Virus record (IMG/VR): IMGVR_UViG_3300030116_003395
Span: 1 to 33,498 of that record
Source of the DNA: a virus
Length of the DNA: 33,498 nt
Direction: 5' to 3' (one strand)
Each line of letters begins with the position of its first letter. Position 1 is the stretch's first letter. The notes under the pieces were generated by a model. The model ran no database searches. It worked only from the letters and a program-made list of their open reading frames with translations, and was not told where the DNA came from. The translations under genes were made by a program, and so were the position numbers. This document shows positions 25,744 to 30,981 of the stretch, one piece after another.

Positions 25744-26152
25744 TTCGTTAATCGAATATAGAGAATGCAGACTTGCTGAACAGCAAGTAAGTTTCGTATC
25801 ACAACATATACCCTTAATACAAGAGCATTTTCTAACTAAAGAAGACCAAATTAAAGCTTTAAGAATAATATATTGCGAAAGCAGAGGCAAAATTAATGCA
25901 GTTGGAAAAAACAAAGACGGCACTTATGACAAAGGTTTATGGCAATTTAATGATAATACTTGGGCGTGGCTAAAAGGTAAGTTAAAATTTACCGGCGACA
26001 GATTCGATCCTTTATTATCAACTAAAGTAGCACGTTGGTTAATTTATAATGACGGCTGGAAACATTGGAACAGTAGTAAAAAATGCTGGTATAATGAAAA
26101 TAAAAATAGGAGTTTTTATGGATATAAGTCTAGAACAAGTTTCAGTCAATGA
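25679..26152 (+). CDS. Lysozyme-like (transglycosylase fold) exported protein, 157 aa
   Basis: Probable peptidoglycan hydrolase. The core (about residues 55-130) has the lysozyme/SLT pattern: catalytic Glu in YCESRGKINAVG followed by KGLWQFNDNTWAW and FDPLLSTKVARWLI. An N-terminal hydrophobic segment after Lys residues (residues 4-22, ISNLLIVCVIPLTL) acts as signal peptide or anchor. GTG start at 25679. It sits with the DNA-modification genes, not with the holin, so it may be the endolysin or an entry enzyme. 3' end overlaps the ParB-like gene. Confidence 0.75.
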   Translation: MKQKLISNLLIVCVIPLTLTPNSLIEYRECRLAEQQVSFVSQHIPLIQEHFLTKEDQIKALRIIYCESRGKINAVGKNKDGTYDKGLWQFNDNTWAWLKGKLKFTGDRFDPLLSTKVARWLIYNDGWKHWNSSKKCWYNENKNRSFYGYKSRTSFSQ

Positions 26153-26873
26153 TTTAGTTGAATTTCCAGATAATCCAAGAGTTGGAAATGTAGCTGAAAT
26201 TAAAAAATCATTGGTAGAAAACTTACAATACAAACCTTTAATTGTTAATAGAAAAACAATGCACGTTTTAGTTGGTAATCATACGTTAAAAGCTATGAAA
26301 GAGCTAGGTTATGAAACTTGCAACGTAAATTTTATTGAAGTAGATCCTTTAGCTGAAAAGAAAATAGTTCTTGCAGACAATAAGTTATCAGATAATAGCG
26401 AATACAATGTTGAACAATTGACCAATTTACTTGATGAATTAATGACAGACGGCGAATTAATCGGTACAGGGTTTAACGCTGATGAAGTTGATGATCTATT
26501 ATCCACACTAGGCGATGCTCCAATAATTACTGACTTCGAACAATTTGAAGGTGGTTATGCCTTAGAAGATGATGAGATTGAAAAACTTAAAAACAATTAC
26601 ATAGCAACTGAAACTTCTAATAAAGAAGCAAGAGGTGGCGAAAGATTACGTGATGTAATGCTACATTACAAAGAATCTAAATACGAAACTTTTGTAGAAA
26701 TGGTATCTGAAATTTCAGAAAAACTAGGGCAAAAGAAAGCAGATTCAATATACGTTGCAGTTGAGTTTTTTCATAAACAACATTTTGAAGATGAAGATTT
26801 TGATGACATTGATACAGAGTTCGAAGAAATAAAAGATAATGCTTTCAAGCGTATATTCAAAAGAGATACTTAA
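26118..26873 (+). CDS. ParB-like nuclease-domain protein of the DNA modification cassette
   Basis: 251 aa. Residues about 8-90 have the ParB N-terminal fold signature: DLVEFPDNPRVGNVAEIKKS, KPLIVNRKTMHVLVGNHTLKA (GNHT in place of the classical GERR box) and IVLADNKLSDNSEY. The C-terminal half is acidic and helical. AGGAG plus ATG 26118 is preferred over ATG 26049. ParB-domain genes are repeatedly linked to phage base-modification operons (Iyer and colleagues' comparative work), where a DNA-binding, nickase or targeting role has been proposed. It overlaps the next gene by 35 bp. No ParA partner or parS cluster is seen, so plasmid-like partition is unlikely. Confidence 0.8.
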   Translation: MDISLEQVSVNDLVEFPDNPRVGNVAEIKKSLVENLQYKPLIVNRKTMHVLVGNHTLKAMKELGYETCNVNFIEVDPLAEKKIVLADNKLSDNSEYNVEQLTNLLDELMTDGELIGTGFNADEVDDLLSTLGDAPIITDFEQFEGGYALEDDEIEKLKNNYIATETSNKEARGGERLRDVMLHYKESKYETFVEMVSEISEKLGQKKADSIYVAVEFFHKQHFEDEDFDDIDTEFEEIKDNAFKRIFKRDT

Positions 26874-27744
26874 TAATTATTTAAAGTTTCACGAAGTCCA
26901 AGAGTATAGTAAGGACATAGATCCAATATACCCAGTGCTTAAATATATTATTGAAAAAGAAAATATTAAACTTGAAGAAAGTATTTGGTTAACTTTCTTA
27001 TATGTTGCTTATTACAATATTGGATCTGCTTTATTAGTATTTGAAAAATACCCAACACCAGAGATTCCACACGATTTACTTAAACTTCCGTGTGCAACTG
27101 AAAGAAGAAATCATAGACAACCAAGAAATTTAGAAAGGCATTTAACTAATTTAGTTGATATTTATTGGTGGTATGACGGCTATGAAAATTTTTTAACAAA
27201 TGATTTTTGTGAACACCCGAAAATGAATTGGGGTATTTTACAAGATAAATTAAATACAATATGGGGTAATGGGCGTTGGGCTTCGTATAAGACAGGCGAA
27301 GTTTTATGGAAAGTAAATGGTCTTAATTTACAAGCTACGGATATGGGACACGCTCACTCAAGCGGATCTCGTAAAGGTTTAGAGCTTTTAATTCGTAATT
27401 TACCAAAAGGCAATTCGGAAAAAGATATACAAGTATTGGATAAAATTAGCGATAATTTAGTCAGATATATGGAAAATCAGGGATTAAAAGTAAGTATTGA
27501 AACAGCGGAAACTAGCTTATGTGACTTTAATAGTATGACTAAAGGTAAATATTACTCTGGTATTGACATAGACCATATGCAAGAAGATCTATTAAACACA
27601 AAAAGTATTTACACAGATTTAGCTTTTGAAGGTAGAAAAAAAACTATACCAAATGAATATCTTGGAGAGCTAAACGGCTGGACTGGAGTAAGAAAAGAAA
27701 AGAAAAAAGAGTATGTTATTAAACAAGAAAGTATCACGAAGTGA
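26839..27744 (+). CDS. Amino-acid:DNA transferase (thymidine hypermodification)
   Basis: 301 aa. Proposed to displace the activated phosphate of 5-hydroxymethyluracil in DNA with an amino acid, the core step of thymidine hypermodification. Regions resembling the family (alpha-glutamyl/putrescinyl-thymine pyrophosphorylase / AADT, distantly related to helical DNA glycosylases): a helical N-terminus with AYYNIGSALLVFEKYPTPEI (58-77), RRNHRQPRNLERHL, GRWASYKTGEVLWK (145-158) and AETSLCDFNSMTKGKYYSGID (223-243). Next to the kinase and dioxygenase genes this call is well supported, but I rely on recalled family patterns rather than a search. Amino-acid specificity is inferred (glycine) from the FAD and GNAT partners. 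Confidence 0.78.
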   Translation: MLSSVYSKEILNNYLKFHEVQEYSKDIDPIYPVLKYIIEKENIKLEESIWLTFLYVAYYNIGSALLVFEKYPTPEIPHDLLKLPCATERRNHRQPRNLERHLTNLVDIYWWYDGYENFLTNDFCEHPKMNWGILQDKLNTIWGNGRWASYKTGEVLWKVNGLNLQATDMGHAHSSGSRKGLELLIRNLPKGNSEKDIQVLDKISDNLVRYMENQGLKVSIETAETSLCDFNSMTKGKYYSGIDIDHMQEDLLNTKSIYTDLAFEGRKKTIPNEYLGELNGWTGVRKEKKKEYVIKQESITK

Positions 27745-28201
27745 AATCCAAGCTTTAAAAATACATATTAAAGACTGGGAATACAAAGGTAGTAAAAGCA
27801 CAATGCATCATTTGAAAAGTGCTTTGTATGATTGGGATAGAGAAAAACAATGGAATAAGGATTCCGCCAAAGTATTTGGTCTTAATAAAAAATGTTATGC
27901 CTTTATTAGCTATACAAAAAGAGATCCTAGACACTGCACTTTAAGACACTTCTTTACACTAGAAACTGCTCGTGGCGAGGGTTTAGGAAGTTTAATGATA
28001 AGTATTATTTTTAAAGATATGCAAGAAAATAATGTAAAGTATTTTAGATTTTTCGCCAATAAACCAGCAATTAAATTTTATGAAAAACTAGGTTTTACTT
28101 GGCACGGATTAAGTAAGACTGGATTACCATTTTGTTATTGGGATATTGATAAACAACAGTCTGCTGAATTACCAAAAGCACAACAAAGGTATATTGTATG
28201 A
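27713..28201 (+). CDS. GNAT-family N-acetyltransferase of the cassette
   Basis: 162 aa. Acetyl-CoA binding motif RGEGLG (residues 87-92, within FTLETARGEGLGSLMIS) and the motif-B helix NKPAIKFYEKLGF (116-128) are clear. In known thymidine hypermodification pathways a GNAT enzyme acetylates the free amine left on the base. ATG 27713 overlaps the transferase gene by 32 bp, and its 3' end overlaps the FAD gene, so it is a dedicated operon member. The first 70 residues are non-canonical and probably form the DNA-facing part. Confidence 0.88.
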   Translation: MLLNKKVSRSEIQALKIHIKDWEYKGSKSTMHHLKSALYDWDREKQWNKDSAKVFGLNKKCYAFISYTKRDPRHCTLRHFFTLETARGEGLGSLMISIIFKDMQENNVKYFRFFANKPAIKFYEKLGFTWHGLSKTGLPFCYWDIDKQQSAELPKAQQRYIV

Positions 28202-28980
28202 AAATAGCAATACTTGGTAATGGTATTTGTGGATCTAGTGCAAAAAAAATTGCTTTAGAATATGGACACGAGCCAACAATTATTTCATCTAATTCTAATT
28301 CTGCTTCGAAATCTGCTTTAGCTTCTATACGCCCAAGCTGGTTTAACAAAGCAGAAAGAGTTAGCATAGATAGATCTTGGGCTTGGTATAAACAATGGAA
28401 CGCCACAATAACTAAAATAGCGACTGTTAGTAATTGGAAAGATCCTACAAAGACAAAAGAACAAGAAGATTGGTGGCTTGTAAAACCAATTAGCGTTCTT
28501 GAAGATCCAGATATAGTTGGGATTGTACCTTACTTGGATATGTTAAAAAATGATTACGATGCAATACTTAACGCCACCGGTGTTAGTTTAAGAAAAGATC
28601 TAAAACATTTTTACGGAGCAACCTTAGTATCTAAGAAAGCAAAAGCTAATTTTATGCCCTTTAGGATTCATCACATTAGACCATATCATAGTGTGCATAT
28701 TGTAGAAAGTGACGGATTAATTAGGATTGGCTCTAGTATTAGTAAAAACAAAGAAAAGTGCGTTGAAGAAATATACAAAATGAAAGAGTTGTGTGAGGAT
28801 CTTAAATTAGTTTCAAAGGTTTATGACTGGGAATTAAATATGGGTATAAGAACACAAACAGAAGATAAGAAACCTATTACCCCACAACTTGGAAATCCTT
28901 ATACAAGCATAGGCGGTTTACACAGAACAGGATATGCTCTTGCACCAGATCTTATTGCACAATGGATTAATAGCTTATGA
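28198..28980 (+). CDS. FAD-dependent enzyme (glycine/D-amino-acid oxidase fold) of the cassette
   Basis: 260 aa. The N-terminal Rossmann motif GNGICG (7-12) in MKIAILGNGICG binds FAD; the C-terminus has MGIRTQTEDKKPITPQLG and GGLHRTGYALAP, the usual FAD-pocket end of DAO-family enzymes. It is shorter than free-standing oxidases (about 370 aa), as expected for the phage flavin lyases that cut the attached amino acid on DNA to an aminomethyl group. The cap region (RPSWFNKAERVSIDRSWAW) replaces the normal substrate lid. Overlaps both neighbours by 4 bp. Confidence 0.82.
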   Translation: MKIAILGNGICGSSAKKIALEYGHEPTIISSNSNSASKSALASIRPSWFNKAERVSIDRSWAWYKQWNATITKIATVSNWKDPTKTKEQEDWWLVKPISVLEDPDIVGIVPYLDMLKNDYDAILNATGVSLRKDLKHFYGATLVSKKAKANFMPFRIHHIRPYHSVHIVESDGLIRIGSSISKNKEKCVEEIYKMKELCEDLKLVSKVYDWELNMGIRTQTEDKKPITPQLGNPYTSIGGLHRTGYALAPDLIAQWINSL

Positions 28981-29555
28981 TAAATACAATTTACTTTATT
29001 GGAGCACCGGCGACTGGAAAAACAACATTAATGAAAAATATACATCAAGAGTGGTTATTTATGGAAAATGTATCAAAGCCAATAGCATACAGAGTTTTCA
29101 AAGATCTTACGAATAAAGAGAACGAATACAATATTGTCTTAGGAAAGGACGCACCAGTTTATGGAGGAACAGATACTTTAAGCTTTACTGCAATTAATCA
29201 TTGTGAGGATTTATATAAAAAGTTTTCAAGAAAAAGAGTCAAGTATGTTTTAGCAGAGGGCGACAGATTAGCAAATTCAACTTTCTTTGATATGTGTTTA
29301 AATTATGGCGAATTGCACGTTATATATTTAGATCTTGATGAAGATTTAAGACTTAAAAGGAATGAAACAAGAGCCAGTATGAATAAGGTTTCAAAGCAAA
29401 ATATAACTTGGCAAAAAGGTAGATTATCAAAGCATAAAAATTTAGCCGAAAAATATAATGCTTATATCTTAAATTGTGGGTATATTGAAGATACTTTATA
29501 CATAGAGAAAAGTGTAGAGGATTTAACAATTGAAGTTAAAGAATTTTTGGTATAA
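28977..29555 (+). CDS. 5-hydroxymethyluracil-DNA kinase (HMUDK-type P-loop kinase)
   Basis: 192 aa. Walker A GAPATGKT (residues 9-16). Family-specific motifs are VLGKDAPVYGGTDTLSF (54-70; the G/F-GTD-x-LS box) and LAEGDRLANSTFF (92-104; EGDRL). C-terminal residues 135-155 (KQNITWQKGRLSKHKNL) match the Q.....R.sK..N basic strip of the family. It is expected to phosphorylate the hydroxyl of 5-hydroxymethyluracil in DNA with ATP, making a leaving group for the amino-acid transferase. ATGA coupling with the FAD gene. Confidence 0.88.
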   Translation: MINTIYFIGAPATGKTTLMKNIHQEWLFMENVSKPIAYRVFKDLTNKENEYNIVLGKDAPVYGGTDTLSFTAINHCEDLYKKFSRKRVKYVLAEGDRLANSTFFDMCLNYGELHVIYLDLDEDLRLKRNETRASMNKVSKQNITWQKGRLSKHKNLAEKYNAYILNCGYIEDTLYIEKSVEDLTIEVKEFLV

Positions 29556-29556
29556 T
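29548..29556 (+). promoter_or_regulatory. Extended -10 promoter (TGGTATAAT), leaderless
   Basis: TG-G-TATAAT ends five bases before ATG 29562, so a transcript would start at or within the start codon. It overlaps the stop region of the kinase gene. This would give the dioxygenase its own leaderless mRNA in addition to read-through. Confidence 0.5.
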
Positions 29557-29561
29557 ACAAT

Positions 29562-30479
29562 ATGATAGAAATAAGACTGAGATCGAAGATAAGTGAGGAA
29601 GAACTTAAACAGAAAGTCGGAAAGATATTAACCGATGAAGATTATAATTTATTAATTCATAAAGACACAACAGTTCGAGCAATTAATGGTGAGATACTGG
29701 CGGTGTATCAAAGGAACGTTATTCCGGAAGACATAGTTGAAAATACTTACCCTGTTTTATCGAGTCTAAAGAAATATCAAACCAATAATAGAACACTCGC
29801 CAGTGGCTTACCACAATACAAAAGGCAGACCGGCGGGACTAGATCTAGCACTGTAAAACCAATAGCTTCTACAACAATTGGTGGATTCGATCCTAAAAAC
29901 AATACACCTTATTGCAGACTTACTGCTTGGAGTGGTAATGAAGTAGATCAATACCAAGAGCTTTTTCCTTTGTTTCAATTTATTGGTAAAGAAATGCAAA
30001 GAGTTGCACCTAAAAGATACAATGCACAAATGGAATTTGTTAATAAAACACATCCAGATTGGGTAATACCAAATACTCCGTTCACAACAATTACTGTTAA
30101 TAATTCTTATCCAACCGGCGTTCACACTGATAAGGGCGATCTTGATGAGGGTATTTCTACACTAGCAGTGATTAAGAAAGGCGATTATGAAGGAGGGTAT
30201 TTGACTTTACCAGAATACAGAATTGCTTTTAATGTAGGACATAGAGATTTATTAATTTTTAATGCTCACGAGTGGCACGGAAATACCAAACTCGAAATGA
30301 AAAGTCCAGATGCTGAAAGAATATCTGTTGTATGTTATTACAGAGAGAATATGGCTATGTGTGATTCTATGGAAGAAGAAGAACTAAAGAAAGCAGAAAT
30401 AGCAGAACGTAAACTTGTAAAAGATAATACTGGGGTTGTTAAAAAATTTATGGAAGAAAAATTTGAAACAACAAGTTGA
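29562..30479 (+). CDS. TET/JBP-like 2-oxoglutarate/Fe(II) dioxygenase (thymine hydroxylase)
   Basis: 305 aa. Catalytic residues are visible: Fe ligands His188 and Asp190 in GVHTDKGD and His239 in HEWHGNT; the 2-oxoglutarate Arg253 in ERISVVCYYREN. GGYLTLPEY (211-219) and GHRDLLIFNAHEW (226-238) complete the double-stranded beta helix in the arrangement of the TET/JBP family. The N-terminus NRTLASGLPQYKR (77-89) also recurs in phage members. With no cytosine-5 methyltransferase in the genome and a hydroxymethyluracil kinase beside it, the expected substrate is thymine in DNA (JBP-like), giving 5-hydroxymethyluracil. A short tail is Lys/Glu-rich. Confidence 0.85.
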   Translation: MIEIRLRSKISEEELKQKVGKILTDEDYNLLIHKDTTVRAINGEILAVYQRNVIPEDIVENTYPVLSSLKKYQTNNRTLASGLPQYKRQTGGTRSSTVKPIASTTIGGFDPKNNTPYCRLTAWSGNEVDQYQELFPLFQFIGKEMQRVAPKRYNAQMEFVNKTHPDWVIPNTPFTTITVNNSYPTGVHTDKGDLDEGISTLAVIKKGDYEGGYLTLPEYRIAFNVGHRDLLIFNAHEWHGNTKLEMKSPDAERISVVCYYRENMAMCDSMEEEELKKAEIAERKLVKDNTGVVKKFMEEKFETTS

Positions 30480-30981
30480 GTGGGAAGCCAACGAAACATA
30501 CGCAGAATATAAACAAAAAAAATATGCTGGTATGCAGGGTATGGGGCAACCTAATTCTAAAAAACGTATGGCTGGAAACTGTCCAAATTCGAATATAGTT
30601 AAAACAAAATGTAAATGTAGAACTTGTATTAATCGCCGTAATAGATCCAAAGGTAGAAGAAAACAAAATTTAGTAAAGAAAAAATTAAAAATACAAGACA
30701 ATAGATTCCACGGAGCAGATGCTCACGAAGAAAATTGGTTAAGCGGTTTAAGGTTTGAAGTCAAAGCAGGAAAACAAGTTGAGCCATTAAACAAATTATT
30801 TAATAAAGCAAAATTACAAAGCGATACAAACCACAAAGCAATAGGATCTTTAAGCAAACCATTTGTATATGTCGCTATGCCAGACGGCACTGAAAATGGA
30901 ATAATGGCTTTCCAATTAGATGATGCTGAAAACGTTTGTTATGAAATACTTAAAAATTTCGGATACATAGAGGAAGATTAA
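30463..30981 (+). CDS. PD-(D/E)XK-like nuclease with cysteine cluster (putative resolvase)
   Basis: About 172 aa from TTG 30463 (TTG 30436 would add nine residues; there is no ATG near). A Cys cluster C40...CKCRTC (50-55) may bind zinc. RSKGRRKQNLVKKKL, AHEENW and FEVKAGKQVEPLN (98-110, with the E-x-K pair E99/K101) resemble small phage nucleases of the PD-(D/E)XK/Holliday-junction-resolvase type. It overlaps the dioxygenase gene and ends exactly where the convergent minus-strand gene ends. Might resolve replication intermediates or digest unmodified DNA. Confidence 0.6.
   Translation: MKQQVEWEANETYAEYKQKKYAGMQGMGQPNSKKRMAGNCPNSNIVKTKCKCRTCINRRNRSKGRRKQNLVKKKLKIQDNRFHGADAHEENWLSGLRFEVKAGKQVEPLNKLFNKAKLQSDTNHKAIGSLSKPFVYVAMPDGTENGIMAFQLDDAENVCYEILKNFGYIEED

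Follow-up and report, generated by a model that had tools for sequence, protein, structure and literature searches.

The phage genome in IMG/VR record IMGVR_UViG_3300030116_003395, analysed over its whole length of 33,498 nucleotides (hereafter the window), carries a cluster of six genes at positions 26118–30479 on the + strand. With a probability of about 0.8, we read it as a post-replicative thymidine hypermodification cassette ending in a predicted 5-acetylaminomethyl-deoxyuridine (5-acetylaminomethyl-dU) or a close acyl analogue. In order, the genes encode a ParB-like protein, an amino acid:DNA transferase (AADT), a GNAT acetyltransferase, a flavoprotein, a 5-hydroxymethyluracil (5hmU) DNA kinase-like enzyme and a TET/JBP dioxygenase. 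The reading draws on the gene families, the fold of the flavoprotein, the gene order, the mutual exclusivity of TET and thymidylate-synthase-like (TS-like) genes among AADT-bearing records, and the lack of a C5-cytosine methyltransferase (C5-MTase) gene. The first five genes run into one another, with overlaps of 35, 32, 4 and 4 bp, and 6 bp separate the last of them from TET; therefore, the six probably form a single co-transcribed, translationally coupled unit. The gene order is kept in about ten further contigs.

Profile and fold searches placed every catalytic gene in the family that an earlier, sequence-only reading of this DNA had named, and the motifs it quoted are all present: Walker A (GAPATGKTT) and EGDRL in the kinase, HTD...H...R in TET, GNGICG in the flavoprotein and RGEGLG in the GNAT. 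The five assignments made by profile, covering all genes but the flavoprotein, score well beyond the threshold wherever the profile has one. The AADT gene (26839–27744) matches PF18724 (7.9e-22; 78.5 bits against a Pfam cut-off of 26) and, by profile search, the AADT structure PDB 25qc (E = 0.0019), and it is 36–40% identical to cassette genes of the actinophages CaiB, Phelemich and Kozie. The GNAT gene (27713–28201; PF00583, 7.8e-11) aligns with gp48 of the Pseudomonas phage PaMx11 (BLASTP, 1e-5), and its product is predicted to acetylate an aminomethyl base. The P-loop kinase gene (28977–29555; PF18751, Ploopntkinase3, 8.9e-18) resembles PaMx11 gp49 (hhalign 96%) and M6 gp54 (hhalign 87%). 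The ParB-like gene (26118–26873; ParB/sulfiredoxin fold; phrog_723, 1.1e-35) begins at an ATG with AGGAG upstream, a start preferred over that of the longest open reading frame (ORF) at 26049, and adjoins TET in most relatives; as a guess, its product is a DNA clamp or a targeting or regulatory factor.

Sequence alone was insufficient to place the flavoprotein (28198–28980), and its placement came from structure. A Pfam search returned no match, including none to DAO, and the best phmmer match in the PDB was a glycine oxidase at E = 0.32. We modelled the protein with AlphaFold2 using nine relatives (pLDDT 83, pTM 0.83) and found by Foldseek that the model matches the N-alpha-glycinyl-thymidine FAD lyase PaMx11 gp47 (8z79/8z2o) with E of about 1e-10 and TM of 0.60–0.67. 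Among the Foldseek matches 8z2o has the highest TM-score, above D-amino-acid oxidases and monooxygenases. The DAO fold proposed by the sequence-only reading was thus borne out through the structure match only. The protein is homologous over its full length to Phelemich gp4 (E = 3e-12) and aligns with the Kozie DAO protein (hhalign 82%), which itself matches Pfam DAO; its alignment to the gp47 family (hhalign 41%) covers the N-terminal part only.

The TET gene (29562–30479) matches PF12851 (Tet_JBP; 8.5e-28; 97 bits against a cut-off of 34.9), and its HxD, distal H and R align with those of TET2 in a profile alignment (A5) where they are invariant. Among AADT-bearing records, 24 contain only TET (19 metagenomic records, the window and four isolates), five contain only a TS-like gene (three metagenomic records, PaMx11 and M6), and none contains both (Fisher 8e-6, ignoring kinship among records). 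Three AADT records have neither, all of them fragments of 8.1 kb or less, and a search of the window for a TS-like gene (PF00303) found none. Therefore, TET is most simply read as the 5hmU source that replaces the dUMP hydroxymethylase, acting as a predicted hydroxylase on thymine already in DNA. Plain thymine had been proposed as the input from sequence, and the proposal is backed by this exclusivity, by the lack of a C5-MTase in the window, and by the finding that the characterised kinase 5-HMUDK phosphorylates hmU, not hmC, in DNA (PMC6457204).

PHROG labels point elsewhere for two of these genes. 'Terminase small subunit' for the window's kinase and 'queuine tRNA-ribosyltransferase' (phrog_6059) for its TET are both contradicted by the Pfam profiles and motifs. 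The first label also stands on other 5hmU-DNA-kinase-like proteins (Phelemich gp5, L003:3330–3869; M6 gp54, L056:31686–32249; PHROG 800), and the second on the Phelemich TET; L numbers here and below denote comparison contigs. These misleading annotations are likely inherited from PHROG families.

In the proposed pathway, TET would act on thymine once it is part of the phage DNA and yield 5hmU, the kinase would transfer a phosphate onto the 5-hydroxymethyl group, and AADT would install an amino acid by displacing that phosphate. The amino acid is most likely glycine, because the lyase is gp47-like, and the intermediate would then be N-alpha-glycinyl-thymidine. The flavin lyase would convert it to 5-aminomethyl-dU, and the GNAT would cap the amine to give 5-acetylaminomethyl-dU or its close acyl analogue. 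The ParB-like protein may target or regulate these enzymes, and the outcome would be phage DNA resistant to host nucleases.

Some of our results weigh against this pathway. The records behind the exclusivity were gathered with window-like AADTs; the window has no end repeats, and a C5-MTase or TS gene could lie beyond the record; and PF00145, the C5-MTase family, matches seven records in a wider set (61 with TET or AADT), two of the matches being weak. Moreover, the direct alignment of the AADT to PaMx11 gp46 is weak (hhalign 4.7%), the flavoprotein is only 14–15% identical to gp47, and its model gives good matches to D-amino-acid oxidases and monooxygenases as well. One alternative is a cytosine pathway, in which TET would oxidize host- or phage-made 5-methylcytosine (5mC) to 5-hydroxymethylcytosine (5hmC) for decoration by the downstream genes, as in phage TET/C5-MTase/glycosyltransferase systems. 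The phage TETs tested so far are reported to be active on 5mC (Burke et al. 2021, cited in PMC12730594), sister loci of the cassette encode TET-associated glycosyltransferases (TAGTs), and Melnitz-1, a TET phage of another kind, has a C5-MTase gene next to its TET. Nevertheless, we consider cytosine a quite improbable substrate: PF00145 is found in none of 48 records of the cassette and glycosyltransferase types (among them the window, close relatives and actinophages), the kinase family acts on hmU, and TET takes the place of the TS-like gene among AADT phages. The same search does detect the C5-MTase of Melnitz-1, whose TET is a distant one. None of the seven PF00145 genes in the wider set directly adjoins TET, and consequently C5-methylation is not a regular cassette partner. 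A Dam-type N6A enzyme (510–1022; PF05869) was the sole methyltransferase detected in the window.

Thymidine hypermodification could also lead to another end product, if the amino acid were not glycine, if the flavoprotein oxidized rather than cleaved, or if the GNAT acted elsewhere, and we regard this as a serious contender that falls somewhat short of even odds. The AADT's distance from gp46 and a gene order unlike that of PaMx11 would fit such an outcome, as would the flavoprotein's divergence from gp47, its resemblance to D-amino-acid oxidase and iminodiacetate oxidase, and the amidoligase and phosphatase that relatives have in place of the GNAT. It is countered by the presence together of exactly the four PaMx11 enzyme classes and by gp47 being the best TM-score match. 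It is unlikely, in turn, that a ParB-guided cassette marks only a few specific sequences, in the service of packaging, replication or regulation, instead of giving bulk protection. The ParB-like gene is a constant partner and the actinophage cassette directly precedes a terminase gene, which would suit such a mark; however, 30–40% of T is modified in M6 and ViI (PMC9599517), and in the window's lineage the cassette adjoins a replication-initiator-like gene (phrog_270), not a terminase.

The predicted thymidine hypermodification genes are one of several contents of a site that behaves as an exchangeable cassette slot. Related contigs share a flank order of MRE11-like nuclease, lysozyme-like, ParB, TET, ORF7 and replication-initiator genes, and the slot between ParB and TET holds one of four payloads: AADT-GNAT-flavoprotein-kinase (the window, L008–L015, L130); AADT-amidoligase (PF12224)-low-molecular-weight phosphatase (PF01451)-flavoprotein-kinase (L043, L060, partly L025); the kinase alone (L023, L039); or a TAGT (PF20691; L021, L028, L042, L046, L047 and others). 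L021 and L043, which carry the unrelated TAGT and amidoligase payloads, are 74–82% identical in nucleotide sequence on both sides of the slot, and their TETs are 89.2% identical. A single clade of kinase-bearing phages was rejected on each of three trees, those of TET (approximately unbiased (AU) p 0.004), MRE (p 0.002) and the replication initiator (p 4e-5). Therefore, the backbone stayed conserved while the payload was exchanged on more than one occasion. A payload-specific residue signature in TET did not hold up; the V/N/E versus C/D/Q positions track lineage, and the kinase-bearing L025 and L043 have TAGT-type residues.

The amidoligase and phosphatase genes lie at L043:5298–6525, where the window has its GNAT, and recur in L060 and in part in L025, with weaker matches in L093. 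This variant hints at another acyl group on the same aminomethyl base, whose amine, left by the flavin lyase, could be capped by either an acetyltransferase or an amidoligase. More broadly, and tentatively since we would put it at less than an even chance, TET-made 5hmU may be a handle common to all payloads, with the slot between ParB and TET acting as a plug-in site; kinase phages would make aminoacyl-derived thymines and their near-identical TAGT sisters glycosylated 5hmU, a base-J-like phage DNA. Glucosylated 5-hydroxymethyldeoxyuridine (5hmdU) was stated in 2019 to be unreported in phage genomes (PMC6449724).

Other arrangements were seen around the slot. No AADT lies between or beside the genes in the ParB-kinase-TET or ParB-TET-kinase loci of L023, L039–L041 and Arthrobacter phage Kharcho (L053); the end product there could be phosphorylated 5hmU, or later steps could be encoded elsewhere. 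Two ParB-like genes stand in tandem upstream of the payload in L020, L021, L028, L032, L038, L042, L043, L046 and L047, compared to one in the window's group. A gene resembling a sugar transferase by eye lies between the lysozyme-like and ParB genes of two glycosyltransferase-type phages (L042:4731–5396 and L047:4953–5612), and it may add a second sugar. Over positions 28056–30460, 2,405 bp of the window are 100% identical to L016, beyond which the two split abruptly within the TET C-terminus, and L016 continues as an unrelated genome that encodes a virion-type protein of 1,457 aa. The L016 junction is either a recent transfer or a chimeric assembly; the window's arrangement is supported by other relatives.

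The sequence-only reading had described an operon of six or seven overlapping genes, the last being a nuclease (30436–30981). Coordinates, strand and families stood for six genes, and the nuclease assignment found no support. This last gene, ORF7 (30463–30981, + strand), likelier starts at the TTG at 30463 than at 30436, judging from the sequence and its relatives. It has no match in Pfam, PHROG or the PDB, and its structure model is poor (pLDDT 50). The relatives' alignment (A2) shows a conserved group of cysteines, C-x9-C-x-C-x2-C, and after it H-G-A-D-A-H-E-E-N-W and E-V-K-A-G-K-Q (H..EENW..G.R.EVKAGKQ); a PD-(D/E)XK-like protein is possible from the EVKAGKQ-type motif alone. ORF7 follows TET regardless of payload, including in the glycosyltransferase relatives, and it belongs with the flank on the TET side and not with the amino-acid payload.

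We found comparable neighbourhoods beyond the close relatives. Within 6 kb of 65 more distant TET loci, a kinase is present at 56, a ParB-like gene at 55 and an AADT at 40; thus, the TET-kinase association is common in environmental phages. Scanning a collection of genome contigs for TET returned distant relatives only, and scanning it for AADT found nothing. A 92,743-bp Streptomyces africanus contig (L073 among the viral contigs, L167 in the genome collection) contains TET, kinase, AADT and flavoprotein genes, and it gives a host link for one distant cassette. TETs 32–39% identical to the window's occur in the marine isolates HTVC112P (L004:8497–9195) and P12024L (L005:7550–8185), where the neighbours are an FkbM-type methyltransferase, or a TAGT and an N6/N4 methyltransferase.

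The window itself is an uncultivated virus record of 33.5 kb, complete and classed as linear, with terminase, portal, capsid and tape-measure genes. A tRNA search and an Rfam search of the window gave no match, and a GenBank search found no near-identical phage. The contexts of its relatives, together with the nearest isolate TETs coming from Pelagibacter and Nonlabens phages, suggest a marine origin.

If the prediction holds, the cassette is a small, self-contained gene set that takes ordinary thymine in DNA to a hypermodified base and includes no precursor enzyme, polymerase or special nucleotide pool. Such a set would be easy to reconstitute and useful in enzymatic DNA labelling, and it allows a direct test of whether phage TETs, like JBP, can hydroxylate thymine. 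With nearly identical TETs standing beside either a glycosyltransferase or a kinase payload, the relatives also offer a natural experiment on which substrate TET chooses and on how phages alter their DNA chemistry.

TET/JBP-linked base-modification operons were reportedly predicted by Iyer and colleagues in 2013, and Lee and colleagues are said to have described, in 2021, how an amino acid is first installed and then processed by lyases and acetyltransferases. The window shares the kinase and AADT of that thymidine pathway, but not the thymidylate-synthase homologue that makes 5hmU as a dUMP derivative. In PaMx11 (Lee et al. 2021), AADT gp46, FAD lyase gp47, GNAT gp48 and kinase gp49 lie side by side with the TS-like gp51 close by; the window clusters all four of these enzyme classes too, and its flavoprotein fold matches gp47. 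However, PaMx11 has a TS-like gene for precursor hydroxymethylation and no TET, while the window has TET and no TS, and gene order and sequence are strongly unlike. In the literature searched, we found no TET version of the PaMx11 set with a GNAT, no TET-TS exclusivity and no payload swap.

The general idea is already known, as TET-AADT-kinase cassettes were annotated earlier in actinophages. The five-gene system of Tonitrus, CaiB, Phelemich, Kozie and LittleMunchkin likewise clusters ParB, TET, AADT, kinase and flavoprotein, and the Tonitrus authors describe a thymidine hypermodification system made up of ParB, TET-like, aGPT-Pplase2 (AADT) and 5hmU kinase genes plus one other (PMC11955845). 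The actinophage system differs in that no GNAT was seen, TET precedes AADT instead of coming last as in the window, and the hosts are actinobacterial. Phage TET/C5-MTase/glycosyltransferase cytosine systems (Burke et al. 2021) use the same TET family, and the window's close relatives have a TAGT in the slot, yet the window lacks a C5-MTase and has kinase and AADT in place of the TAGT. Finally, the kinetoplastid JBP1/2 base J pathway also relies on a TET/JBP enzyme, for which hydroxylation of T within DNA has been proposed; base J is glucosylated, whereas the window's decoration is predicted to be amino-acid derived.

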